From assembly GCA_030743815.1 (NCBI GenBank), contig JASLRT010000091.1:1-57219 (forward strand): a DNA stretch of 57,219 nt. The letters are read 5' to 3'. Shown piece after piece: positions 1-24,272 of the stretch. Each line of letters opens with the position of its first letter. Within the stretch, counting starts at the first letter, position 1. The notes under the pieces are model-generated. The model saw only the letters and a list, made by a program, of their open reading frames with translations. It was not told the origin of the DNA and did not search any database. The position numbers and the translations under genes were made by a program. Source of the DNA: Candidatus Neomarinimicrobiota bacterium. Its GTDB lineage: Bacteria; Fidelibacterota; Marinisomatia; Marinisomatales; S15-B10.

Positions 1-1413
1 ATCGCCGTCGCCGTCCCAGTCAGCGAAGACGGGTGACGCCCTGCCGCTCAGATCAATACCGCTCACTTCGCCGGCATAATCGAACTGATGAAAGTCGACA
101 CTGCCGTTATTCTCAAGCAAGTGAATCTTGCCGTTCCAGTCGCCAACGAATGCGTCTAAGTCACCGTCGCAATCGATGTCGGTGAAGTCAGGCGACAGGT
201 TGTTCCCGATAGGAATGTCGAAGAAACTCGAGTCCTCGAGGCTGAAGCTCGGTTCATAGGCCGTGCCGCTGTTCCTGAAGAAAGTGACAGTTCCTTTCCA
301 CCCGGGATTTTGCGGATCGAACTCGTTGCCGACGAAAAGATCGTCATCGCCATCATTGTCTATATCTGCCAGCGCTGGGATTGAACTGGCGATTATATCG
401 AGGGTAGTGATAGCGTTCACCGTCTTGAACTCGAAGTCAGCGAACGACTCCATGCCCACATTTTCGTAGTGCCAAAAGTTGTTCGTATAGTCGGTTCCGT
501 AGGCGCCGGACTGGACGCCGATAAAGAGGTCGCCGTCACCATCAGAATCGACGTCAGCAAAACGGGGTACGTTGAAGCCGGCTGTCGCCACCGGACGGGA
601 TTGAGGATAAGTGACTACCATCAGGCTGTCTCGAATATCAGGCGTATCCCGTGTGCCGACATTCTCGAGAAAGAAGAGCCCCGGCTGGAAGAGATCGCCC
701 CAGAACAGATCGAAATCGTTGTCGGCGTCTATGTCATAGAACTCCAGCGCGTTGGCTCCGTGCCTGTCGCCCCTGCCGGGAACCCAGACGATAGATATGT
801 CCTGGAATGTCTCCGACTCAAGATGAAAGAGAGGCAAGTGATCTTTCAAGCCGAGATTACTATAATGGGTGACCGTTCCCGCCAACGAACCCACAAACAG
901 ATCAGGCCAACCGTCTCCGTCGATATCGGCCAGCGTCGGGATCACAATCTGCCCTCCACTCACGAGAGCTCCGTCGTCTGTGACCAATCGATCCGTCGCC
1001 AACTCAAACATGTCGTCACTGTTGCGATAGACGGAGACGGCGGATGACCCTGGCGTCTGGCACAGCAGATCTGGATCTCCGTCGAGATCATGATCGACAA
1101 ATCTATACCATCTTCCAACATCGAGCTTCTGAAACCACTTCGTATCAAGCTGAAACTGAGGCTCTCCGGGTGAGCCGCCGTTGCGATAGAATTGCAACCT
1201 GCCGTCCTGATCCAGAACAAATAGATCGAGAAGGCCGTCACGGTCCCAATCGACGAACTGTGGGACCGGCTGGTTGAAACCGCCCAGGAAGGGCGTCTCG
1301 ACGACGACACCGCCTGAGATTACTGGAAATGGATCAATCTGCCGCTCAAAGGTTTGAGCGCAGACAACCGGAGGGAGGAGAGCAAGAAATAAGAAGCTGC
1401 AGCGCAGAATCAT
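1..1413 (-). CDS. Secreted FG-GAP/VCBS repeat protein (C-terminus off the left edge)
   Basis: The frame is open from the ATG at 1413 to the window edge, giving 471 codons without a stop. The N-terminus MILRCSFLFLALLPPVVCAQ reads as a Sec signal peptide. The rest is a string of about eight Asp-rich FG-GAP/VCBS motifs, such as DWDRDGLLDLFV, DIDGDGWPDLFVG, DVDSDGDGDLFIG and DIDNDGDDDLFVG, each followed by a short strand ending in FYRN, HYEN or LLENNG. These motifs normally bind calcium and build a beta-propeller like that of integrin alpha chains, outside the cytoplasm. The ATG overlaps the TGA of the cytochrome gene upstream (ATGA), so the two are probably translationally coupled. No enzyme domain is visible in the part present, and whether a type IX sorting domain or other anchor follows cannot be seen. 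Confidence 0.85.
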   Translation of the reverse strand, partial: MILRCSFLFLALLPPVVCAQTFERQIDPFPVISGGVVVETPFLGGFNQPVPQFVDWDRDGLLDLFVLDQDGRLQFYRNGGSPGEPQFQLDTKWFQKLDVGRWYRFVDHDLDGDPDLLCQTPGSSAVSVYRNSDDMFELATDRLVTDDGALVSGGQIVIPTLADIDGDGWPDLFVGSLAGTVTHYSNLGLKDHLPLFHLESETFQDISIVWVPGRGDRHGANALEFYDIDADNDFDLFWGDLFQPGLFFLENVGTRDTPDIRDSLMVVTYPQSRPVATAGFNVPRFADVDSDGDGDLFIGVQSGAYGTDYTNNFWHYENVGMESFADFEFKTVNAITTLDIIASSIPALADIDNDGDDDLFVGNEFDPQNPGWKGTVTFFRNSGTAYEPSFSLEDSSFFDIPIGNNLSPDFTDIDCDGDLDAFVGDWNGKIHLLENNGSVDFHQFDYAGEVSGIDLSGRASPVFADWDGDGD

Positions 1414-2825
1414 CCGCCAGAGCGAACCGTTACCGAACCCGAGAGGGCAGCAATATCAAAGATGGTGAGCCGTGGGACGAACTCACCGTGTCCGAGCTCG
1501 CGCAGGAGAAAAGGCGGCAGCGCCCTCATCCTCAGCCGAATGTTAACGTCCATGATTCCTTCAAACGCATCATCTAAAATGACAGGATACCGCACCGTCT
1601 TCGATCCCTGCGCCGGAATAGTATTGTCCGTGAAGTGTGATATCCTCTCCACCGATACGTGGCGCAAGCCTGAATCTCCTTCGGCATTGTACAGCACTGT
1701 CCGGAAGACGGTGATGTCCGGGTCGATCACACCTTCTGGATCAAGGTAGAAGTCATACAGATCAAGATCCTCGTTCAGAAAACCGCTTTCGTAGAGCGTA
1801 TCACCCTCCTGGACAGCGGTCACCTCCAGCCACAGCTGCCGCGCAAAGGTGACGCCGGATGGCAGACTGTGTCCGGCGCTATTGGTGACGATGAGAGAAA
1901 TTTGCAACGTGTCCCCGGACAAAACTGTATCAGGAAGGGACGGCTGGAAGTTAAGCTCCGCAGTAACCTTCATGAGATCTTCGATTGCCTCAAGCTGGGC
2001 ATCTTCCTGTCTGAAAGCCGTCAGGGCACGATCGACGCCGGCGAAGCTGTGCCGGTGCAGATTCTCTCTCAGCGGTGCTTCCGGAAACAGTTCGCGGTCC
2101 ACCGCATAACCACCGTATGTCTGCATGTGGCACGTCTGACATTCAACGCCCATGGCCTGAAAGGCGGTACCGCTCCATTCCGTAAACGTAACCTCTGCGT
2201 CCAGGCCGTCGATGGTCATATCGTGACAGCCGCGACAAAACTCGGATTTGTCATAATCGGGGTGGTATTGAGATTCGTGAGCGCTGTTCGCGATGGGATC
2301 TTGCAGTGTGCCATACTTCACATTGCCCGTGTTGAGGAAATAGAAGATCGCCTCAAAATCGCCTCCCGATGCGGCTACCTCAGTGGTAGGCGACATGTGC
2401 GTTGTGGCGTGGCAAAAGGAACAGCCGATTCCCTCTCTCACCTGCGGCGCCAGCGATGACGTGTCATCAATGGTCAATGATGACGGATCTTCGATGGCCT
2501 CCGTCAGGAAAGCTACAGGCGAGTGGCACATTATGCAGAACTGTCCCAAGTCCCGGTCTCCCTCCACAGCGAAGTGCTGCTGTTCATTTGTGTGTGAGGT
2601 AAACCATACAGGATCCTTCATGGCGTAGGCGTGCATGGAACCGGACCACTCTCTGTATTGGGTCGGATGGCACGACTTGCACTCCGTCGCCGGTTCGAAG
2701 TCCTCTACCTTGAAGACGGTCTGAATGGGGAATTCATCATCAGGAGGTATCTCTTCCGTATGCTCACACGCAAGGAGGAACAGGAGTGATGACGTTAGCG
2801 GTATGGATATTCCGAATCTAGTCAC
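1410..2825 (-). CDS. Five-heme c-type cytochrome lipoprotein
   Basis: The 471-aa product starts with a lipoprotein signal whose lipobox is LLAC (Cys20). Five CXXCH heme-binding motifs follow: CKSCH (49-53), CIMCH (97-101), CSFCH (135-139), CRGCH (197-201) and CQTCH (229-233). Extra His residues such as those in HRHSF could be distal ligands. The C-terminal half is heme-free and carries the segment NSAGHSLPSGVTFARQLWLE, a pattern common in cytochrome c554-like multiheme proteins. It should be a membrane-tethered electron carrier facing the periplasm or cell surface; its partners are unknown. It overlaps the propeller gene upstream by 8 bp and the FG-GAP gene downstream by 4 bp. No catalytic heme site of the nitrite reductase or hydroxylamine oxidoreductase type is evident. 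Confidence 0.85.
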   Translation of the reverse strand: MTRFGISIPLTSSLLFLLACEHTEEIPPDDEFPIQTVFKVEDFEPATECKSCHPTQYREWSGSMHAYAMKDPVWFTSHTNEQQHFAVEGDRDLGQFCIMCHSPVAFLTEAIEDPSSLTIDDTSSLAPQVREGIGCSFCHATTHMSPTTEVAASGGDFEAIFYFLNTGNVKYGTLQDPIANSAHESQYHPDYDKSEFCRGCHDMTIDGLDAEVTFTEWSGTAFQAMGVECQTCHMQTYGGYAVDRELFPEAPLRENLHRHSFAGVDRALTAFRQEDAQLEAIEDLMKVTAELNFQPSLPDTVLSGDTLQISLIVTNSAGHSLPSGVTFARQLWLEVTAVQEGDTLYESGFLNEDLDLYDFYLDPEGVIDPDITVFRTVLYNAEGDSGLRHVSVERISHFTDNTIPAQGSKTVRYPVILDDAFEGIMDVNIRLRMRALPPFLLRELGHGEFVPRLTIFDIAALSGSVTVRSGG

Positions 2826-3945
2826 AGTCAGAACAGACGCTTTGCATCACCGCCAGGCCTGTGGCCATGACGTCTTCTCCGAGGACGACATTATGGGAGA
2901 TCGTAAGTGTATTGGAGTCGATTATGTGAAGATAGCTTATTCCACCCGATGCGGCACTGCTGGTGATGAATATCCTTTCGCCATCGTGTGAAACGCCAAC
3001 GCCGTGCGGCATATTAAATAGATCTCCTGTTATCTCGGCAGGAGGAACATCATGGCTCAGATCGATGACTGAGACGCTGTTATCTCCCCGGTTAGCTGCA
3101 ATCACGGCGTTTCCATCGGGCGATACTACCAGATGCCAGGGAGAACTGCCCACAGGCCACTGACCGAAGAGGGCGCCGGTTTCCGTATCGTAAGATCTGA
3201 CTTCTCCTCTACCCGATAGAGTAATATAAACACGATTGACCGATGGTGCCATTTCCATCTGCAAGGCCTGTGCCCAGTTGTCAGCGAATGAGGCGCAACC
3301 GGGGGCACTCTGGCTCTGTTCGTATTCGGACGCTAGGGGAAAGCGCTCCGGCTCATACTCGGGGTCACCAAATTTCTCCACATCAATCTTGAACAGACAC
3401 GACGAACTGAAGCTGGCACTCCAGACATAATCGCCCGCAAGATCGATAGTGATGCCGTGGGGAGATTCTGCATCAACATCTACAGTTCCCATAATACTCA
3501 TGTCAGATGTACGAATCTTGTGTATCTCTTTCGACTGCAGCGCCACTCCCCCCATGGGCATGAAGCGGGAGACATAGAGAAACTGACCATCTTGGGAGAG
3601 TGTCATGAGGGCAGGCATGTTGCCCACATCTACCGTATCCTCAAGCTCATCCGTGAGAAGATCGAATTTCGCCACGATGCCCGAAGAGATGAGTGTCGCG
3701 TACCACTTTTTATTCTCGTCATCAATGACCACAAAATGAGGCCGATCGAGGATTCCCGGTGTGAAATCGACGTCCACTTCCCTGATGATCTCTCCTGTAC
3801 TTGCGTTGATGACACCAACCTTATCGGCTTTCTGGTAGGTAACGTACACCTTTGAGATATCCTCATCGGCATCCTTATAGTCACCGCAGGCTGACAACAG
3901 CAAGAGAACCAACAGAAGTGAGGCAAGAATCAGTGTCTTTTTCAC
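2818..3945 (-). CDS. YVTN-type beta-propeller lipoprotein
   Basis: The 375-aa product has a lipoprotein signal with lipobox LSAC (Cys20). It continues with repeats of the YncE/YVTN class, for example KVYVTYQKADKVGVINASTG, YVSRFMPMGG and VIAANRGDNSVSVIDLS, which predict a seven-bladed propeller. The protein ends in CSDCD. Such propellers bind partners or ligands in the periplasm; no catalytic residues are recognised. The start is GTG at 3945 with GAGGGA about seven bases upstream. The gene follows the M1 peptidase gene by 66 bp and overlaps the cytochrome gene by 8 bp, so it is probably in the same transcript. The pairing with a multiheme cytochrome suggests a scaffold or sensing role in a surface electron-transfer or degradation complex, which is inference. 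Confidence 0.75.
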   Translation of the reverse strand: MKKTLILASLLLVLLLLSACGDYKDADEDISKVYVTYQKADKVGVINASTGEIIREVDVDFTPGILDRPHFVVIDDENKKWYATLISSGIVAKFDLLTDELEDTVDVGNMPALMTLSQDGQFLYVSRFMPMGGVALQSKEIHKIRTSDMSIMGTVDVDAESPHGITIDLAGDYVWSASFSSSCLFKIDVEKFGDPEYEPERFPLASEYEQSQSAPGCASFADNWAQALQMEMAPSVNRVYITLSGRGEVRSYDTETGALFGQWPVGSSPWHLVVSPDGNAVIAANRGDNSVSVIDLSHDVPPAEITGDLFNMPHGVGVSHDGERIFITSSAASGGISYLHIIDSNTLTISHNVVLGEDVMATGLAVMQSVCSDCD

Positions 3946-4011
3946 GAAGGAATCCCTCGGAGCGCCATTTCAGTAAGTGTACCTCTTTCAGCCCGTAATT
4001 ACAAGCCGTGG

Positions 4012-6963
4012 CTACAGGCCACCATCGAAGCCGATGACCCATCGCGTGAGGTCTAAGGACTTGATCTCCCGCCCCGCCGGATTGGCGGTATGATTGAGCC
4101 AGAAAGGAAAGTCCATGCGCAATCTCCACGTCTTGCCTGCTATCTTCTTGCTAAAGACAAAGCCTGCACCCACATCAGCCAGTATGTCGCCGTTGAGTCC
4201 GTCGGAAGCCAGTTCGCTCCTGAACGAGCCGCCTTCCACAAAGATACGCATTCGAGTCTTTACGGCGGGAGTTGGCAGACTGTAGTTTCCCTCAAAGGTT
4301 GCCGCCAGTACAGTTTCGGCGCCGGAGAAGTCGTGATCGTAGTAGCCGCGCAAGTTTCCTTCTCCATTTATATGAAAGTGATTCCTCGCCGCTTCAACGC
4401 CGTAAAAGGCCGACGCATGTCTGAGATAAGGTTTCGCGTAATAATCGCCGGAGCCAGCACTCTCAACAGTGAACTTCTCCTGTCCGGGAACACCTTTCGC
4501 TCCACCCCACACTTTCCCTAAGAAAAACGAGAGTGCGGTACCGAGTTTTCCCACGGGGAACTTCATCTTTCCTTTCGCCTGCAGCCGGCTGAAGCTCCAG
4601 TCACTCATACCCTCTACCGAGGTTGCCGCTTCCAGTTGAAGTTCCCTCCCCATTCCGCCTCGGTGGACGCCGACGCCATAGCGTCCGTAAAGTACACCAG
4701 TCTCCCCGGGTTGATACAGATCTGTATAGCCCGAGTTGCCGGCCTGATTGAAGTAGAAACCGGCAGTTACTGTATGGTTGGGCGGCAAACCGTAGAACCG
4801 AGACCACCCATAACTGAAATCCACGTCTCCGCCGCGTAGTCCTTCCAAAAAAAATACATTTGCCGAAACAGTGAGCCACGGGATGAACGATTTGAGCGTC
4901 TCGCTGAAGTTAATCTGACCGTAGAGGTTTTGGGACTTGAGGCCGCTCGTCAAGAAAAAGTTGAACCTGTGCCACGGACCGTACGAGCGCCGGAAGGACA
5001 AACCCGGCTTCAGACCATCCTTTTCGTGGTACCAAAAGACCGGATTCCAGCGCAAGACGTAAGCGGCGCGGGGATTATAACCCATGCCGGGCCAGTTGAA
5101 GATAACATCATCGGGCAGAGAGCCAGATACGTTGTCGCGCAAATCAATGTCCATGGTCCAATTGTCAGGATCGATCATGATATCGACAGGTTTCGACGGC
5201 AGCACAAGGGAGAAGATATCTTCGTCTCCCCGCAAATGATTTGTCCAGCGGGTGAACGTGGTGTCTCCATTTTCCGTCACTACCCTGATGTCGAGAGGAT
5301 AGCGCATACCCCCTTTTTTTTCGATGCGAAGCGACAGATCGTAAGTTCCGTTATCCCCTTTTTTCATCCACCAGTCGCCCAGCGCGTAGTCGTTGTACGA
5401 AGCCTGGTGCAGCCACTGTTCGAAGAACCAATCGAGATTCTCGCCACTTGTCTCTTCCATAGCCTGGCGAAAACGGTCTTCGTTGGTGTGCTTTAGTTTC
5501 CAGCGATGGTAGTAGTTTTGCATGGCGCTATCGAAAGTTTCACCACCCAAGAGATTCCTCAAGGAGTAGAGCATCATGTGAGGCTTTGTGTAGGCGTTCA
5601 ACCCGTAGGCAGACCACCCTGAGGCGAGATACGATTTTGTGTCGATAGGTTCATTGTGACGGCTTGTCATGAAGCGAATAATCGTCCACTGCACATTGTT
5701 GCGCTCGCCAAGGAACTGCCAGTATTTCTTTTCGAAATCGCCATACCAGCGACTGTGCTCGAGATCGATGCCGTGAGGAGGATAAGTGTGCGCCATGTAC
5801 CAAGCGTCCTGAAAAGAGGTGAACCCTTCATCAAGCCACGCTTCTTCTACTTCGTTGTTCGCCAGTATGCCGTAGAACCAGATGTGCCCCACTTCATGGG
5901 CGATGAGTCCCTCAGAATCACTACCGTCCATCACCAGCATGGGGTATTCCATGCCACCTCCCTGCAAGCTGTGGGTTATACTGACCTGTGGATAGGGGTA
6001 TTCACCGAACCGGGTAGAGAGCCACTCAAGAACTCGCTTAGTCCGTTTGACCACCTCTTTCGACCAGTCTTCGGCCGAATCTCTATCATACAGAACGTGA
6101 ATGTCTATACCACCCCACTGGCCGTCTTCGTAAACGAAGTCGGGCGATGCGATCCAAGCAAAGTCGTGAACCTGCTTTCCGTGAAAGGTCATGGTTCGCC
6201 GGGCGGAGGAGTCGATCTCAATGCTGTCTATGACGGCGAGCCACTCCTGAAAATCCATGGAAGTGTCAACCGCAACGCGGCTCCATCCTGGATCGCCGGC
6301 AGTCAAGACTCCCGTAGCGGCAACGGTGAATCTTTCTGGAACATCGATAATCACGTCGTAAGTACCAAACTCACCGTAGAACTCCCCCATGGCGTGGAAA
6401 GGATCGGGATGCCAGCCTGTTTCATCATAGACCACCATCTTGGGATACCACTGGGCGACATCGTACTGTTCATCTCTGTATCCGGCGCGTCCGTAGAACT
6501 TCCGGACTTTGTGCTCCCAGTCGATCTCGATAGTGACAGAATCGCCGGGAAGGAGCGGCGCCGGAAGAGGGGCTTGGAGGATCGTGTCATCAATCTCAAA
6601 CGTTCGGGACGTGCCCTCTTCCGTAGAGGCAACCGCGAAATCATCTATCCGCAGATAACTGGAGCTGTCATCTGGGAATGATTTCAGCATGAACTTGGAG
6701 ACTACACCGTAGTTCGAACTTTCTTCGTATTTCACCGAACCGTGCAGGAAGGCGTTGGGATAGAGGTGCATGTAGATGCGATCCAAGGTATCAGGCGAGT
6801 GATTAACGTAAACGATAGATGACTTACCCGAGATCAGATGTTCCACTGGATTGAGCGAGACGTCCATGCTATAGTGAACAAACTGCTGCCAGTATTCATC
6901 TTCAGCGGAGAGGAGGAAAACAGAAATTAGAACGAAAACAGTCTGACTGAGTATTGTTTTCAC
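4012..6963 (-). CDS. M1 family metallopeptidase with probable C-terminal outer-membrane barrel
   Basis: The 983-aa product has an N-terminal signal sequence (about residues 1-20) and a gluzincin aminopeptidase fold. The zinc site is HEVGH (356-360), followed 18 residues later by Glu379 in WLDEGF. GGGMEYP (335-341) stands where M1 enzymes have the GxMEN substrate motif. From about residue 650 the sequence becomes rich in alternating aromatic beta-strands (PAYGLPP-like turns, YGRYGVGVHRGG, LRGYYDHDFSGAE), resembling a surface-antigen barrel that would hold the peptidase at the outer membrane. Start GTG at 6963 has a weak ribosome site. It heads the run into the propeller, cytochrome and FG-GAP genes. 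A rho-independent terminator ends only about 17 nt upstream of its start codon. The peptidase call is firm; the barrel is inferred from strand pattern. Confidence 0.85.
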   Translation of the reverse strand: MKTILSQTVFVLISVFLLSAEDEYWQQFVHYSMDVSLNPVEHLISGKSSIVYVNHSPDTLDRIYMHLYPNAFLHGSVKYEESSNYGVVSKFMLKSFPDDSSSYLRIDDFAVASTEEGTSRTFEIDDTILQAPLPAPLLPGDSVTIEIDWEHKVRKFYGRAGYRDEQYDVAQWYPKMVVYDETGWHPDPFHAMGEFYGEFGTYDVIIDVPERFTVAATGVLTAGDPGWSRVAVDTSMDFQEWLAVIDSIEIDSSARRTMTFHGKQVHDFAWIASPDFVYEDGQWGGIDIHVLYDRDSAEDWSKEVVKRTKRVLEWLSTRFGEYPYPQVSITHSLQGGGMEYPMLVMDGSDSEGLIAHEVGHIWFYGILANNEVEEAWLDEGFTSFQDAWYMAHTYPPHGIDLEHSRWYGDFEKKYWQFLGERNNVQWTIIRFMTSRHNEPIDTKSYLASGWSAYGLNAYTKPHMMLYSLRNLLGGETFDSAMQNYYHRWKLKHTNEDRFRQAMEETSGENLDWFFEQWLHQASYNDYALGDWWMKKGDNGTYDLSLRIEKKGGMRYPLDIRVVTENGDTTFTRWTNHLRGDEDIFSLVLPSKPVDIMIDPDNWTMDIDLRDNVSGSLPDDVIFNWPGMGYNPRAAYVLRWNPVFWYHEKDGLKPGLSFRRSYGPWHRFNFFLTSGLKSQNLYGQINFSETLKSFIPWLTVSANVFFLEGLRGGDVDFSYGWSRFYGLPPNHTVTAGFYFNQAGNSGYTDLYQPGETGVLYGRYGVGVHRGGMGRELQLEAATSVEGMSDWSFSRLQAKGKMKFPVGKLGTALSFFLGKVWGGAKGVPGQEKFTVESAGSGDYYAKPYLRHASAFYGVEAARNHFHINGEGNLRGYYDHDFSGAETVLAATFEGNYSLPTPAVKTRMRIFVEGGSFRSELASDGLNGDILADVGAGFVFSKKIAGKTWRLRMDFPFWLNHTANPAGREIKSLDLTRWVIGFDGGL

Positions 6964-6980: not shown

Positions 6981-7010
6981 ATAAAAAAGCCGGTATGGCT
7001 AACACCGGCT
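6981..7010 (-). terminator. Rho-independent terminator after the tlpA-like gene
   Basis: On the minus strand an AGCCGGT stem pairs with ACCGGCT (7-bp arms at 7004-7010 and 6988-6994) around a 9-nt loop and is followed at once by a run of T (6981-6988). It lies 25 nt past the stop of the thioredoxin-like gene. It also sits directly upstream of the M1 peptidase GTG, so it could act as an attenuator if transcription reads through. Confidence 0.85.
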
Positions 7011-7035
7011 CAAATGATTCCATCTGGATTGAATC

Positions 7036-7584
7036 TTATAGAAGTTTTGCGATATCGTTTTCAATTACGTAGTGCGGTCTGAATCCAATATATCTCTGTT
7101 TGACATGAAAGTCTCTATCTATGATAAATGTCGTAGGAATTCCTGTCACCCCACCGTACTGATTTGCCACTTGGCTGTCGCCGTAAAGTATCGGATAGTT
7201 GATACTGAACTTATCGACAAAATCAGGCACAACATCAGCGCCGTTTGTGTCCATGGAGATTCCCAGAACAACAACATCATGCTGATACTTTTCCTGCAAC
7301 CTTATTAATGAGGGAATCTCTTGCCTGCAAGGCATGCACCACGTGGCCCAAAAGTTAAGAATAATGACTTTCCCCTTGTAGTCAGACAGAGAAACGACTT
7401 CTCCATCAACCTTTTCCAGATCGAAGTCGGGGGCCTTAACCTTGCTGGAGCCGATCCTAGGGAAAGCCGCCTCGGCCAAGACCGTTTCACCCTCTCCGCC
7501 ACTTCCGTTTCCTGTCGCCACAATCCCGGCCACCAGCAAAACGACAATCACGAACACAGCCACCCCTATTTTCTTTAAGTCCAT
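7036..7584 (-). CDS. TlpA/ResA-like membrane-anchored thioredoxin
   Basis: The 182-aa product has one N-terminal membrane segment (residues 5-24) and then a thioredoxin-like domain of the AhpC-TSA/Redoxin type. The redox motif is WCMPC (Cys83, Cys86) within NFWATWCMPCRQE, and the cis-proline region is TGIPTTFIID. Such proteins work outside the cytoplasmic membrane and reduce disulfides, often of apocytochrome c before heme attachment. A multiheme cytochrome is encoded 4 kb downstream, so a role in its maturation is plausible, though no ccm genes are in the window. It is monocistronic by signals: a good promoter at 7607-7635 and a terminator at 6981-7010. A peroxiredoxin-like role is less likely because both cysteines form the CXXC pair. 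Confidence 0.85.
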   Translation of the reverse strand: MDLKKIGVAVFVIVVLLVAGIVATGNGSGGEGETVLAEAAFPRIGSSKVKAPDFDLEKVDGEVVSLSDYKGKVIILNFWATWCMPCRQEIPSLIRLQEKYQHDVVVLGISMDTNGADVVPDFVDKFSINYPILYGDSQVANQYGGVTGIPTTFIIDRDFHVKQRYIGFRPHYVIENDIAKLL

Positions 7585-7675: not shown

Positions 7676-8596
7676 TCATATTCTCGCCTTCACCCATTGC
7701 CGAAAATGATAACTCCATCTCTTGCGTTTCTCCATCTCTCTTTTCAAGAGCGGAAGTGCTTTCTGCGTGCTTTCTCGGCCATTGTTTATGAATTCACCAA
7801 TCCGGGGAAATTCAGACCAGTGCGCTCCTCCCACATCAGGTTCGATGAGAACATCGGCCTTGCGGGACAGTTCATCAGAGAGTTTTACACTGGTCACCTG
7901 GCCGGCGCGGGACATGAGTTCCATCAGGTTACACTCTTTCAATATCTTCAGTTCCCGCCGCGCGATATCAACGGCGATAGTCATATCCAGTTCAGTATCC
8001 AGCAACACATTTATCGGCAGCGGCGAAACGACACCGCCATCTACCAAAAGCTGACCGTTCTTGGGCGATGGCGCCACAAACCCCGGTACAGCTGAACTGA
8101 GTGTGACGGCCTCAATCAAATCGCCTGATGAAACTACAACAGCCTCCACTTGGTTAAGATCCGATATAACGACTTTTAACGGTATCTTAAGTTCTGAGAA
8201 ATCTCTTACCGGGAGGAGGTACTCGATTGAAGCAGCCAGTTTGCTCCGTTGGATAATTCCTTTGCGGCTGAGAGCAACAGTAATTACCAGTTTGTCCTTT
8301 ACAAATTTACCTAACTGATTAAGAAATGAATCATTACCCTCATCACCTTTCCTGATATGATGTACACCTACTGCTCTGAACTCATCACTATCTATGTATT
8401 CCATGTACCGCTTCTCAACCCATCCGGGGTCCAGTGTAGCGGCATACATGGCGCCGATGATAGCGCCGGCCGAAGTACCTGCGATGAGATCAATCGGTAT
8501 CTTATTATCGTGCAGAACCTGCAGTACACCGATATGAGCTGCACCTCGCGCACCACCTCCCGCCAGAGCGAGCCCAATCTTTATATTCTGTTTCAT
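7676..8596 (-). CDS. Patatin-like phospholipase
   Basis: The 306-aa product shows the full patatin catalytic set: oxyanion motif GGGARG (13-18), nucleophile elbow GTSAG with Ser42, and the dyad Asp186 in VDGG. There is no signal peptide, so it is a cytoplasmic or peripheral lipid acyl hydrolase of the RssA/NTE-like bacterial class. Its physiological substrate cannot be read from the sequence. Its ATG overlaps the stop of the cyclophilin gene (ATGA), and it is the last gene of the pyrF-pyrE-cyclophilin-patatin run. A 91-bp spacer carrying the tlpA promoter follows. Confidence 0.88.
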   Translation of the reverse strand: MKQNIKIGLALAGGGARGAAHIGVLQVLHDNKIPIDLIAGTSAGAIIGAMYAATLDPGWVEKRYMEYIDSDEFRAVGVHHIRKGDEGNDSFLNQLGKFVKDKLVITVALSRKGIIQRSKLAASIEYLLPVRDFSELKIPLKVVISDLNQVEAVVVSSGDLIEAVTLSSAVPGFVAPSPKNGQLLVDGGVVSPLPINVLLDTELDMTIAVDIARRELKILKECNLMELMSRAGQVTSVKLSDELSRKADVLIEPDVGGAHWSEFPRIGEFINNGRESTQKALPLLKREMEKRKRWSYHFRQWVKARI

Positions 8597-9261
8597 ACAT
8601 CTTCCGTAAGTTCAATACTGAGCATCTCAGCAGTGGTTAGGTAGACTTTCATTCTAACCGGTTTCTGAGGATTATCGCCGTCGGCTCTTCTGTAGTTTGA
8701 GTCAAACTTTCTCGGTGTTTCAACATTTACAATCTTATCCATCACCTCAAGTCCGCGAACAACCTGCCCAAAAACGGTGTACTGTCCATCCAGTCGGGGT
8801 ATCGGTTGAACACAGATGAAGAATTGACTGCCGGCACTGTCGGGATCCCGGCTGCGGGCCATTGAGAGAGCACCCCTTGAATGAGGACGATCGTTGAATT
8901 CGGCAGGGAGCATCCATGAGGTACTGTTGTCCTCGTCGCCGATGCCGTAGAACTTGCCCGCCCTTCCCCCCTGACCATCATTGCCCCTGTCTGAGTCCTT
9001 CGAATTCGGATCGCCACCCTGAATCACAAACCCGGGAATTACGCGGTGAAAAGTAGTGCCATCAAAGTAGCCTTCGCCCGCCAATATCCTAAAACTTTCA
9101 ACATGTTGTGGGGCTGAATCTTCGTAGAACTTGATAACCATATTCCCGAATTCTGTTTCGATAACAGCCAGTTCCGGTGGCCGCTCGTCGCAACCGAAAA
9201 ATAGGATCAACGGCAGCATCCACCCCGTTATCCGTTTTGGTACCTGTTGAAAAATTATCAT
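8593..9261 (-). CDS. Cyclophilin-type peptidyl-prolyl isomerase, lipoprotein
   Basis: The 222-aa product has a short hydrophobic leader ending in the lipobox-like FFGC (residues 21-24), then a complete cyclophilin domain. Family landmarks are FHRVIPGFVIQGGD, GALSMARS, SAGSQFFI and FGQVVRGLEVMDKI. Cyclophilins speed proline cis-trans isomerisation during protein folding; the leader puts this one outside the cytoplasmic membrane. The Phe and Arg of the active site (FHRVI) and the Gln of SQFFI are present, so it should be active. It overlaps pyrE upstream and the patatin gene downstream by 4 bp each, an operon of functionally unrelated housekeeping genes. Confidence 0.9.
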   Translation of the reverse strand: MIIFQQVPKRITGWMLPLILFFGCDERPPELAVIETEFGNMVIKFYEDSAPQHVESFRILAGEGYFDGTTFHRVIPGFVIQGGDPNSKDSDRGNDGQGGRAGKFYGIGDEDNSTSWMLPAEFNDRPHSRGALSMARSRDPDSAGSQFFICVQPIPRLDGQYTVFGQVVRGLEVMDKIVNVETPRKFDSNYRRADGDNPQKPVRMKVYLTTAEMLSIELTEDV

Positions 9262-9824
9262 TTCCCTGTTCTACCCCTAGTGGTCAGAGGAACGTCTTTC
9301 ATACAGAGGGGACATGCATCAGGTTCCCAGGAAACAGCGGGATAGTGTACCAGTGCTGTTGTGGGGCAGCCGAAATCGACGCCCCTTTCGGTACGATCAG
9401 CGAGACATGCCACGCCGGCAACGGTGGCGCCGTGATCCTCCGCGATCTGCAGTAGCTCGCGCACGGAACCGCCAGTGGTCACGATATCTTCTACCACCAG
9501 AACCGTCGTTCCGGGATCTATGTGGAACCCGCGCCTCAGTGCCAGTTCACCGTCGGAACGCTCAGCGAATATACCTTTAGTGCCCAGTTTTCTGGCGGCG
9601 GCGCTGCTCAAAAGGATTCCCCCTATGGCCGCCCCGAACACCACTTCAATCTGCTCGCCGCTATACGGTTCGGCCATCATGGCGCCAATTTCCTCCACGA
9701 TATCAGGACGCTCCAGGAGCCGGAATTTCTCAATGTAAACATCACTGTGGCGGGCTGAGGTGAGCCGAAAATGGCCCTCAAGGATGGCGCCTGTCTCTTT
9801 CATCAATTCAATCAGTTCACTCAT
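9258..9824 (-). CDS. pyrE: Orotate phosphoribosyltransferase
   Basis: The 188-aa product converts orotate and PRPP to OMP, the fifth step of UMP synthesis. The PRPP-binding loop VLVVEDIVTTGGSV is intact, and the N-terminal EGHFRLTSARHSDVYIEKF segment matches the family. The tail CPLCMKDVPL with a CXXC is typical of the short PyrE subfamily also found in archaea and thermophiles. It follows pyrF by 18 bp and overlaps the cyclophilin gene by 4 bp, so two consecutive steps of the pathway are made together. ATG start at 9824. Confidence 0.93.
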   Translation of the reverse strand: MSELIELMKETGAILEGHFRLTSARHSDVYIEKFRLLERPDIVEEIGAMMAEPYSGEQIEVVFGAAIGGILLSSAAARKLGTKGIFAERSDGELALRRGFHIDPGTTVLVVEDIVTTGGSVRELLQIAEDHGATVAGVACLADRTERGVDFGCPTTALVHYPAVSWEPDACPLCMKDVPLTTRGRTGK

Positions 9825-9842
9825 TTCGCCGTAGCCCTTTTG

Positions 9843-10643
9843 TCACTCCAGTGTAGCGTTGATTCTTGTACAATAATCCTCAGCCGCCTTCCGTATGGCG
9901 AATTCGCTCTGATCCCCCGCATACATGATGGCGCGGGAGACGTTTATAAGGGCGACCCCGCCTTCATTGCCAGCTCGAACGCTCGCCTCCAGATCACCTC
10001 CCTGAACCCCCACGCCGGGAATCAGAAACGGCACATCGCCTGCCGTTCGCCTCACGTCTGAAATCATTTCGCTTCTGGTGGCGCCCACTACAAGCCCGCA
10101 GTTATCCGATTGATTCAGTTCTGATACCAGCGAAACAACTTTTTCGTAGATGAATCCATCGCCTGTCCTCTGCAACTGTAAATCTGTCGCCCCCTCATTT
10201 GACGTCACACAGAGGACGAATGCCCCCTTATCGGGCCGGTTGAGGAACGGCTCAATCGCATCTCTCCCCATATACGGACTGACAGTTACCGCGTCGAAAC
10301 CCATTTCACCGAGAATTGCCGTCGCGTAATGCTTTGCTGAGTTGGCGATATCACCCCGTTTTGCATCGGCGATGACCAATCGGCGGCCGTCAATCTGACG
10401 CACCACCTCTTCCAGCCAGTGGTAGCCGTCTCCACCGTGGCGCTCGTAGAAGGCAAAGTTGACCTTGTAGGCAGCGGCTGAATCCAAGGTGGCATCGATG
10501 ACTTTGCGCACGTAATCCTTCAGGTCATCGAGCGTGGATGAAGAGGGGTAGGAAAGGCGGTCGGTATCAATGTCCAGCCCTACGCAAAGACGGGAATTTG
10601 ACCTTTCCAAGTGATCAAGAAGAATATTCGAGAAAGAGTTCAC
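9843..10643 (-). CDS. pyrF: Orotidine 5'-phosphate decarboxylase (type 2)
   Basis: This enzyme decarboxylates OMP to UMP, the last step of de novo pyrimidine synthesis. The active-site segment is DAKRGDIANSAKHYA, the DAKRGDI form that marks the type 2 subfamily rather than the DLKFHDI form of E. coli. LCVTSNEGATDLQ and PGVGVQGGD bind the phosphate. The chosen start is GTG at 10643, giving VNSFSNILLDHLERSN and 266 aa, which matches where the family begins. The frame stays open to a TTG at 10679, but those extra residues (FPPRGRRNF) look unlike a protein start. No strong ribosome site stands before the GTG, so the exact start is uncertain. pyrE follows. Confidence 0.9.
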   Translation of the reverse strand: MNSFSNILLDHLERSNSRLCVGLDIDTDRLSYPSSSTLDDLKDYVRKVIDATLDSAAAYKVNFAFYERHGGDGYHWLEEVVRQIDGRRLVIADAKRGDIANSAKHYATAILGEMGFDAVTVSPYMGRDAIEPFLNRPDKGAFVLCVTSNEGATDLQLQRTGDGFIYEKVVSLVSELNQSDNCGLVVGATRSEMISDVRRTAGDVPFLIPGVGVQGGDLEASVRAGNEGGVALINVSRAIMYAGDQSEFAIRKAAEDYCTRINATLE

Positions 10644-10735
10644 AGGCGAAAAATTACGCCGGCCCCTCGGGGGAAACAATTGAAACCACTTCAGGCTGTA
10701 ATAAAAACCCCATCATGCGATAGGGTTAATGCACG

Positions 10736-10808
10736 CTCCGGAGGAGGGACTCGAACCCCCAACCTAGTGGTTAACAGCCACCCGCTCTACCCATTGAGCT
10801 ACTCCGGA
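10736..10808 (-). tRNA. tRNA-Asn (GTT anticodon)
   Basis: The minus strand folds into a 73-nt cloverleaf. The acceptor stem TCCGGAG pairs with CTCCGGA with discriminator G; the D arm contains GCTCAATGGGTAGAGC; the anticodon loop reads CTGTTAA with anticodon GTT; and the T arm contains GGTTCGAGTCC. The 3' CCA is not encoded and must be added, fitting the CCA-adding enzyme gene at the right edge. Confidence 0.95.
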
Positions 10809-10843
10809 ATTATCTCAGAAAATCTCTTTCAAAAAGTGGGGAG

Positions 10844-10871
10844 AATTTAGACAGATTGTCTCGCCAGTCAA
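10844..10871 (-). promoter_or_regulatory. Candidate promoter of tRNA-Asn
   Basis: On the minus strand TTGACT (10866-10871) and TAAATT (10844-10849) are 16 bases apart, with the -10 box 35 nt before the mature 5' end. It lies just after the stop of the symporter gene. Assigned by match to the sigma-70 consensus only. Confidence 0.45.
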
Positions 10872-10874
10872 ACT

Positions 10875-12719
10875 CTACATTTCCTTCTCAGCTTCCAAAA
10901 GCCTGCCTTCCACAAACATGCCGCTCTTTCGCTGCTCTTCGGTGACATAAACGATACCGTCCTCATCATGCGGTGTACCGTAAACTGAATGAATGGACTT
11001 CAAGCCACCCATCCACTTTCTCTTATCCATGATGTATACCAAATCACCCGGATCGGCGGCCATTCTTTCCAAGTCGTTACGCGAGAAGCGGATCACATCT
11101 TCCTGATCTTCAACAATTCTATACTGCACCAGAACTTTTTTTCCTTCACGATCATTCGGTTTACTGCCCTTGAAGTATTCCCTGGCGTTCGCCACGTCAA
11201 ATATTGACAGACCTTTAATGTCTTCAGGGTTCTTCGGCTTCGTCACGAGGCTCACAGCTACGCCAACGACGGCACACACCACGATATTGTAAAGCGCACC
11301 TATGTAGATGTACGGTCTGCCGGGCATCATCTCAATGCCGTGATCAAAGGGTGCGATCAATTGCGGGAAAACCTGCCCCAAGATCATGAGTCCAGCGCCG
11401 ATGGTGAATGTGGCAATGACGGCGGCTGACGTGAAGCGTTTCCAGAAAATACCGAGGAACACAGCTACGATGAGAGGCGGAGTAAATGTAGAATGGAACC
11501 AGCCGTGGGCTTCATAGATGGTGCCAAAGGAATTGAAAACAGGCACCAGGATCACACTCAGCGCTGTCACTCCTACCGAGGTCCAACGGGCAATCTCGAG
11601 GAAATGTTTGTCGCTGTGCTCCTTCTTCACAAACGGGCGGTACAAATCATTCACAAATACATTCGCTGAAGCATTTACCAGCGTATCCACAGTGGACATC
11701 AGTGCAGCACTGAGCGCGGCGATAATGAATCCAAAAACACCCGGTTTCGCCACCAGATTCGTGACAATCACAAATACATCATTGGGATTCAAATTGGGAT
11801 CAATCTGCCCCGGAAATACACTCACGATCGCACGACCAATCCAGCCTGCATTGGAGACAACAATCGCGGAGATGGGTAGAACAACCAGGATGTTCATAGT
11901 AGCAGCTTTTCGGCCTTCATTGACGCTCTTGCAGGCCATGAAGCGCATGATCAGCCCCTGATTCATAAACAGGAAACCGATGGAGCCGGCTATGCCGTCC
12001 TGCCAGAAAATGCCTACAAAATTAAAGTCCGGCGGGTAATTGAAGGGCGCCAGCGGCAGCTTTTGTTCGGATGAGAGCGCGCCCCAGAATATGTCGAATC
12101 CCCCTAAATAGTCGATCCCCAACAAAAACAGAAACAGGCCCGCAAACAGCAAGATCAATCCTTGAAGAAGATCGGTGAAAATAACTGATGTCTGACCTCC
12201 AAAATGCATGTATACAGCGGTTAGCACTGCGATGACGATGACAGTGCCCATCAACGGCAGACCCATGATCTTGTAGAGTGCCGTAGCCAGAGTGAGAAAA
12301 CCGATGGCGATGTAGCCGATCATATAGAGTAGAATCATGATCGTAGCGAGGAAACGGGCTGTGAAGTTGAACCGCCGCTCGAAGTACTCAGGGATAGAGC
12401 GGACCCGGGAATAGATGATGATCGGTAGCCAGCCGAACATGAAAAAAGGGACGAAGAACCAGTCGTTCATGTAGGTCATGGTGGATGAAAAACCGTACTG
12501 GAACGCCTTGGAAGAATACTTGACGAAGCTGTGTGAACCGACACCTGTAGCTACAATGGAAATGGTAATCAACCACCAGGCATATCGCCTCCCGCCGAAG
12601 AAGAAATCCGACGTCGTTTTCGCGTAGCGGCCAAAGTAACTGCCAAATAACAACACCGCAACAAAATAGATGATGATAACAGCCTGATCCAAACCGGTAC
12701 CGACGATTGTCTGGCTCAT
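10875..12719 (-). CDS. Sodium:solute symporter (SSS family)
   Basis: The 614-aa product has the many-helix core of the SSS family, beginning QAVIIIYFVAVLLFGSYFGR, a form seen across sugar, proline and related symporters. It should carry an unknown solute into the cell with sodium. A soluble C-terminal tail of roughly 110 residues, from about EDIKGLSIFDVANA onward, follows the last helix. The start is set at the ATG at 12719, because AAGGGA sits six to nine bases upstream and the upstream extension (to 12806) would run through the small membrane-protein gene. That 70-aa gene ends 5 bp before this start. The substrate cannot be deduced; neighbours give no catabolic context. Confidence 0.87.
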   Translation of the reverse strand: MSQTIVGTGLDQAVIIIYFVAVLLFGSYFGRYAKTTSDFFFGGRRYAWWLITISIVATGVGSHSFVKYSSKAFQYGFSSTMTYMNDWFFVPFFMFGWLPIIIYSRVRSIPEYFERRFNFTARFLATIMILLYMIGYIAIGFLTLATALYKIMGLPLMGTVIVIAVLTAVYMHFGGQTSVIFTDLLQGLILLFAGLFLFLLGIDYLGGFDIFWGALSSEQKLPLAPFNYPPDFNFVGIFWQDGIAGSIGFLFMNQGLIMRFMACKSVNEGRKAATMNILVVLPISAIVVSNAGWIGRAIVSVFPGQIDPNLNPNDVFVIVTNLVAKPGVFGFIIAALSAALMSTVDTLVNASANVFVNDLYRPFVKKEHSDKHFLEIARWTSVGVTALSVILVPVFNSFGTIYEAHGWFHSTFTPPLIVAVFLGIFWKRFTSAAVIATFTIGAGLMILGQVFPQLIAPFDHGIEMMPGRPYIYIGALYNIVVCAVVGVAVSLVTKPKNPEDIKGLSIFDVANAREYFKGSKPNDREGKKVLVQYRIVEDQEDVIRFSRNDLERMAADPGDLVYIMDKRKWMGGLKSIHSVYGTPHDEDGIVYVTEEQRKSGMFVEGRLLEAEKEM

Positions 12720-23826: not shown

Positions 23827-24272
23827 ATGAAAATGTTACTTGACGGTGAATGGCACAACAGGGAGGAGACCATTGATGTAACCAATCCCTTCGACGGCTC
23901 GCTCATCGACACAGTGCCCAGCGCCACATCAGAAGATGTCGACCTAGCCATCTCATCCGCCGTGGAAGGGTTCGGAATCTCGAAGCATCTCTCGGCTCAT
24001 GAGAGAGCAGATATCCTTTACGGGACCGCCTCCTCATGAAGAGTCAGCACGAAGAGTTTTCTTAGCTCATTGCGAGAGAAAGTTCGAAAACAATCAGGGA
24101 AGCACGCAAAGAAGTGCGCCGCAAGAAGAAAGAGTAACAATCTATCAAATTGTATCCGGGGAGGCTTACTTACTGTCCTCAATCCAACAAGGTGGAAAAG
24201 ACTACCAGCGCGAAAGATACTACCGAATTAACCGTAACGATCGATACATTCTCACCCTAAGCTTAACTGATT
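23827..24272 (+). pseudogene. Aldehyde dehydrogenase remnant (frameshifted, C-terminus deleted)
   Basis: A good ribosome site (GGGAGGCAGGAA) precedes ATG 23827, and the first 70 codons read as a normal aldehyde dehydrogenase N-terminus: MLLDGEWHNREETIDVTNPFDG, then HLSAHERADILY. The frame ends in TGA at 24037. Homology goes on in the +3 frame, with an internal stop, as LIARESSKTIREARKEVRR. It then moves to the +2 frame as SGEAYLLS, GGKDYQRERYYRI and ILTLSLTD, where live enzymes have GGEDR, YY and ITPFND. Homology ends at about 24272, seven bases before the next gene. The cofactor-binding core, catalytic Glu and Cys and the whole C-terminal two thirds are absent. It is a dead gene with several independent lesions. 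Confidence 0.85.

Follow-up and report, generated by a model that had tools for sequence, protein, structure and literature searches.

A predicted His4/Met metal site in a conserved, once fused propeller–pentaheme cytochrome pair of Marinimicrobia

What is the functional unit in a run of four genes that places a peptidase and a YVTN propeller beside a multiheme cytochrome and an FG-GAP repeat protein? The question is raised by contig JASLRT010000091.1 of a Candidatus Neomarinimicrobiota bacterium, one of the Marinimicrobia, a widespread marine group that has few cultured members and an energy metabolism about which little is known. The genome (2.1 Mb, 123 contigs, 97% complete) contributes as its contig C91, read from the first base, what we call here the window, the whole stretch of 57,219 nucleotides that was analyzed. 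An original prediction, made from the letters of this DNA, had described the four genes as a single exported set and had ventured that a surface complex might couple degradation to extracellular electron transfer. Its description of the locus holds well: the four open reading frames are present with the coordinates given, all on the minus strand (Table 1), and are joined by a 66-bp gap (M1/YVTN), an 8-bp overlap (YVTN/cytochrome), and a 4-bp overlap (cytochrome/FG-GAP). Because position 1 is a contig end, the FG-GAP gene is cut and the genes to its left are unreadable.

Table 1. Features of the locus, in window coordinates; blade positions are those of the predicted fold.
Feature	Position	Strand	Basis or conservation
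FG-GAP repeat protein, frequent partner, open at contig end after 471 aa	1..1413	-	ORF, Pfam
Pentaheme c554-type cytochrome, predicted lipoprotein, 471 aa, core part	1410..2825	-	ORF, Pfam, CXXCH
YVTN-type seven-bladed propeller, predicted lipoprotein, 375 aa, GTG start, C20 lipobox, core part	2818..3945	-	ORF, Pfam, TIGR, AlphaFold
His314 codon, blade 6	3004..3006	-	33/33 relatives
His271 codon, in PWH, blade 5	3133..3135	-	33/33 relatives
His163 codon, blade 3	3457..3459	-	33/33 relatives
B2-C2 loop, residues 128-139, FMPMGGVALQSK in the window, Met-rich in relatives	3529..3564	-	Strand limits from AlphaFold
His70 codon, blade 1 inner strand	3736..3738	-	32/33 relatives, the exception a gap
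M1 metallopeptidase, beta-rich C-terminal domain (possible outer-membrane barrel), facultative neighbor	4012..6963	-	
Terminator-like hairpin between TlpA-like gene and M1	6987..7011	-	Consensus scan
TlpA/ResA-like thioredoxin, conserved upstream neighbor	7036..7584	-	

The family assignments are likewise borne out by Pfam, which matches the cytochrome to Cytochrome_C554 (PF13435; 6.1e-12, 46.7 bits against a gathering cut-off of 20.8), the YVTN protein to a lactonase-type propeller (1.4e-9; also beta_rpt_yvtn, TIGR02276, 2.2e-11), the FG-GAP protein to FG-GAP_3 (4.7e-29), and the peptidase to Peptidase_M1 (1.4e-16, 61.2 bits against 27.7). The peptidase has the M1 zinc motif HEXXH-(18)-E, as HEVGH at 356 with E379, and its residues 640-983 contain 12 alternating 10-residue stretches, as against 6.5 +/- 1.9 in column shuffles, a count reached in 0 of 300 shuffles. 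A PDB profile search with this region returned no match; judged from its sequence, the beta-rich C-terminal domain may be a barrel. The products also look exported, as had been proposed. The propeller and the cytochrome have lipobox-like motifs (LSAC and LLAC, respectively, each ending at C20) and are probable lipoproteins, while full-length orthologues of the FG-GAP protein, 688 and 700 aa long, carry a C-terminal T9SS type A sorting domain (Por_Secre_tail), which marks type A cargo in relatives G008 and G049 and would lie in the part of the window's copy that is cut.

Are these genes transcribed together? A strong terminator-like hairpin at 7011-6987 lies immediately upstream of M1, and the interval 3946-4011, where a terminator or promoter had been named as the observation that would break the set, carries no site resembling either on the minus strand (both by consensus scan). 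This combination makes a single transcript starting at M1 plausible; the genes are operon-like, and they likely have a redox role. The TlpA/ResA-like gene upstream is accompanied in several relatives by a DsbD homologue, and both would fit thiol handling for heme attachment. Elsewhere in the window, a short ORF of 70 aa at 23827-24039, possibly a truncated gene, resembles by eye what we take to be the start of an aldehyde dehydrogenase.

The claim that all four genes form one unit fares less well when the neighborhoods are compared across the phylum. We read those of all 30 genomes with a cytochrome match at E<=1e-50 among 245 phylum genomes; some of these loci end at contig ends, and the counts that follow are minima. 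A propeller gene is adjacent to or fused with the cytochrome in 21 of the 30 loci, and an FG-GAP gene is the immediate neighbor or lies no more than three genes away in 26, while the M1 peptidase adjoins the cytochrome in 11, all of one order. Within that order, which is the window's own (18 loci), the propeller is adjacent or fused in 12, unlinked in four (G028, G099, G101, G103), and not found in two (G013, G105); FG-GAP is adjacent in 16 and M1 in 11. Among the 12 loci elsewhere, the propeller is adjacent in nine and unlinked in three (G161, G165, G177), FG-GAP is adjacent or at most three genes away in 10, and M1 is a neighbor in 0. In G022 the FG-GAP gene is convergent rather than co-directional. 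M1 thus separates from the others, which is what the original prediction had named as grounds for giving up the set of four. From these counts, the peptidase is a facultative neighbor, probably not required and sharing the transcript in some members only, and the stable core is the propeller with the cytochrome, usually joined by FG-GAP.

Several loci depart from the common arrangement. In one genus (L075, L081-L084, ~8100-11100) the propeller gene has been relocated, the cytochrome remaining with M1 and FG-GAP; the relocated propeller's neighbor, of 569 aa, is presumably an ATP sulfurylase. In G105 the cytochrome relative (L158:626-6523) is preceded by a gene pair that we take to be SusC/SusD-like. 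In one family (L098, L099, L100, L162) one or two further propellers of the choice-of-anchor B type stand beside the propeller–cytochrome pair.

The association of propeller and cytochrome also holds at the level of whole genomes. Profile searches of the 245 genomes (propeller at E<=1e-20; cytochrome at E<=1e-50, a cut-off picked once the matches had shown a break from 5e-53 to 8.5e-40) find both in 28, the cytochrome only in two, the propeller only in seven, and neither in 208, that is, 30 cytochrome-positive against 35 propeller-positive genomes (Fisher p 5e-28, uncorrected for kinship). Several of the nine single-positive genomes are incomplete. Relaxing the cytochrome threshold to E<=1e-20 gives 53 positive genomes, of which the same 28 have the propeller. 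Counted by genus, both occur in 19, one only in 1 and 2, and neither in 62 (p 1e-15, again uncorrected for kinship). The seven genomes in which the two genes are unlinked keep both on different contigs, which speaks against mere hitch-hiking, and in G017 propeller and cytochrome form a single ORF of 866 aa. A model of the fused protein (pTM 0.49) was considered for docking; its orientation was left unused, and it is silent on contact between the two parts. In the distant family of G082, a propeller ORF (L154:3339-4346) has one N-terminal CXXCH followed by a shortened propeller, and is either a heme–propeller fusion or a damaged gene.

How far does the pair extend? Of the 61 genomes in an early search of 60 relatives, 23 had matches; judged by identity and gene order, 10 of these are orthologues, in addition to the one of the window. 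For relatives further afield, a first, single-sequence scan returned no loci, and a profile scan returned 23: 16 are Marinimicrobia-type relatives at E<=1e-62, and seven are weak matches in other phyla, at 23-30% identity, that we left out of membership. Within this analysis, the propeller–pentaheme pair is seen only in Marinimicrobia.

The five hemes of the original prediction are confirmed by count, with CXXCH at residues 49, 97, 135, 197, and 229; of 20 sequences, 19-20 keep each motif. Five further His (65, 183, 257, 259, 319) are conserved to the same extent, one of the sequences having masked letters, and this complement would fit five bis-His hemes and electron transfer over catalysis. 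The nearest solved sequences are cytochrome c552 (5ze8; 4.2e-15), which we take to be penta-heme, and MccSep (0.0019), while a match to the ExtKL model (2e-11, 43 bits) falls below its 250-bit cut-off. The window's own genome matches the cytochrome profile once more, less strongly, at G000:C49:11511-12812, in an open frame of 711 aa.

A lipid-anchored multiheme cytochrome beside a T9SS-type protein might point to a surface module for classical extracellular electron transfer, as the original prediction had it. No second ORF with at least two CXXCH is found in the 30 neighborhoods, nor was a porin–cytochrome conduit recognized there in a search directed at CXXCH motifs; we therefore set such a conduit aside and consider the module very improbable. 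The idea of degradation coupled to extracellular electron transfer is left unsupported by the same search. What survives of the proposal is that the products look exported and that the genes are operon-like, with a likely redox role; the unit of four and the coupling to degradation are not supported.

The propeller, for its part, has features that suggest a metal site. AlphaFold predicts seven blades closed by the C-terminus (pLDDT 87.9, pTM 0.86), and blades were assigned by hand from the model's strand list. Exactly four His columns are conserved among 33 aligned propellers, and in the model each of these residues sits at the start of an inner strand: His70 at position 2 in blade 1, His163 at position 2 in blade 3, His271 at position 3 in blade 5, and His314 at position 2 in blade 6. 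Few His are found at the four sites in non-member propellers from the same scan, the alignments there being partial. Met is abundant in two loops, making up 148 of 466 residues (32%) in the B2-C2 loop of blade 2 and 56 of 397 in the D6-A7 loop that precedes the last inner strand, against 425 of 12517 (3.4%) elsewhere in the 33 propellers, and some members (L162_05, L163_08) have long Met-rich runs. With two Met, the window's own B2-C2 loop is among the poorest of the 33, which counts against every Met being essential. Some members without the second Met loop end in CXXC instead, as does the window's propeller. Propeller topology places these loops on the same face as the beginnings of the inner strands. 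We infer a soft-metal site, most likely for copper.

It might be argued that such His and Met are merely structural, and that these are structural or adhesive surface proteins that happen to be co-expressed. YVTN and FG-GAP repeats are indeed common in surface proteins, and the best sequence match of the propeller is the S-layer propeller 1l0q, but the four His are fixed between distant members while most other positions vary, and the propeller is both fused with and retained beside a pentaheme cytochrome; we give this explanation very little credence. The fold does not decide the matter, as propellers match one another generically: VIA-align places the model closest to 1l0q (Z 39.3), lactonases (37.5), nitrous oxide reductase (NosZ, 36.4), mLST8 (35.0), and thiocyanate dehydrogenase (32.9).

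Of these, NosZ invites comparison as a seven-bladed propeller with His near its axis that takes electrons from cytochromes, and the model aligns with it over its whole length (320 residues); like thiocyanate dehydrogenase, it is a copper enzyme whose site lies in the channel. Unlike NosZ, the window's family keeps His in just four columns across 33 sequences and does not have the seven His that ligate CuZ, as named in part by the titles of mutant structures, and there is no C-terminal CuA cupredoxin domain, the last propeller strand ending at residue 366 of 375. Of the 245 genomes, 20 have NosL, and these show no overlap with the 35 that are propeller-positive. Against the model of the lactonase-type L-NosZ (NF052460) the window protein scores 50.6 bits, where the cut-off is 700, a value exceeded in 0 of 120 genomes. 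Membership in NosZ or L-NosZ was accordingly rejected, given the low score, the number of His, the missing CuA domain, and the absence of NosL. L-NosZ matches of at least 98 bits do occur in 22 of the 120 genomes, none propeller-positive, and 15 ORFs from these matches carry an HHP motif and C..FC; most of the 22 genomes belong to other families, and the lack of overlap may thus reflect phylogeny. In a local profile alignment with NosZ-like ORFs (probability 70, E 3.9e-5), His163 and His271 fall opposite His of NosZ, but the blades are in other registers in a global alignment (probability 3.8) and also if one goes by where the structural alignment starts and ends. Because the alignments disagree on register, we claim no mapping of CuZ residues.

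Thiocyanate dehydrogenase (TcDH) offers a second precedent, being a propeller with three coppers in a tunnel and a c-type cytochrome as acceptor (PMC9456337). Here, too, the match, one of fold, is whole-length; TcDH chains are longer (463-474 residues), and its cytochrome c552 partner is single-heme.

Channel His are also found in a zinc chaperone, AztD, and this counts against the reading favored below. The pore of that propeller binds zinc through three His (PMC6689063), and its structure 6n01 is among the fold matches of our propeller. By analogy, the propeller could be a metallochaperone or surface receptor that captures metal (copper or other), with the cytochrome reducing Cu(II) to Cu(I) for the Met-rich loop. 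Met-rich loops are typical Cu(I) ligands, which is in keeping with such a role. AztD differs in having zinc, eight blades, and an ABC-transporter operon, and it works with that transporter; none recurs among the annotated neighbors here, most of which lay outside the family-library scan. We regard metal capture as unlikely, if the most serious of the competing explanations.

A final alternative would place catalysis at a heme of the cytochrome, the propeller then being a metal-free scaffold, in a hydrazine synthase-like or other heme enzyme. A 2025 report describes hydrazine-synthase-like clusters (clades I-III) in other phyla in which c554-type heme domains lie side by side with a propeller and an FG-GAP (CRTAC1) gene, the alpha and beta-gamma genes flanking FG-GAP genes (PMC12758564), and there is a weak match to the HZS-beta model (1.1e-14), at 54.3 bits against a cut-off of 560. 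Neither a gamma-type diheme domain nor an alpha-like gene was recognized at our loci, and no ORF with just two CXXCH occurs in the 30. The five extra conserved His, moreover, suggest that all hemes are bis-His, and a metal-free scaffold leaves the invariant His and the Met loop unexplained; a heme enzyme of this kind is highly unlikely. The pair shares features with TcDH, AztD, and the hydrazine-synthase-like clusters while lacking the defining features tested for NosZ, L-NosZ, and hydrazine synthase.

The reading that we favor, with moderate confidence, is that the core is a lipid-anchored two-protein redox module. Where the central channel of the propeller opens on one side, the four His on blades 1, 3, 5, and 6 would hold a metal, most likely copper, aided by Met from loops on the same face or, in some members, by C-terminal Cys. 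The pentaheme cytochrome, with its five probable bis-His hemes, would relay electrons to or from this site, and the T9SS-type FG-GAP protein would be a surface-exposed partner.

The four invariant His, the Met-rich loop, the natural fusion, and the phylum-wide co-occurrence had no place in the original prediction. What appears new is the conserved, once fused propeller–pentaheme pair with its predicted His4/Met metal site; a literature search, whose reach did not extend to subscription papers and preprints, found no description of such a combination. The pair may form an undescribed copper-type redox system. It is possible, if on present evidence rather doubtful, that with it the copper propeller oxidoreductases gain a further, undescribed class, distinct from NosZ, L-NosZ, and TcDH and limited in this analysis to Marinimicrobia; its site would combine four His with Met, and its electron partner would be a pentaheme cytochrome of its own, in some cases fused to it. 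Conserved, kept together even where its genes drift apart, and predicted to hold a metal, this redox pair is a concrete and expressible enzyme candidate from these bacteria; copper, if confirmed, would add a class to the few propeller-based copper enzymes.
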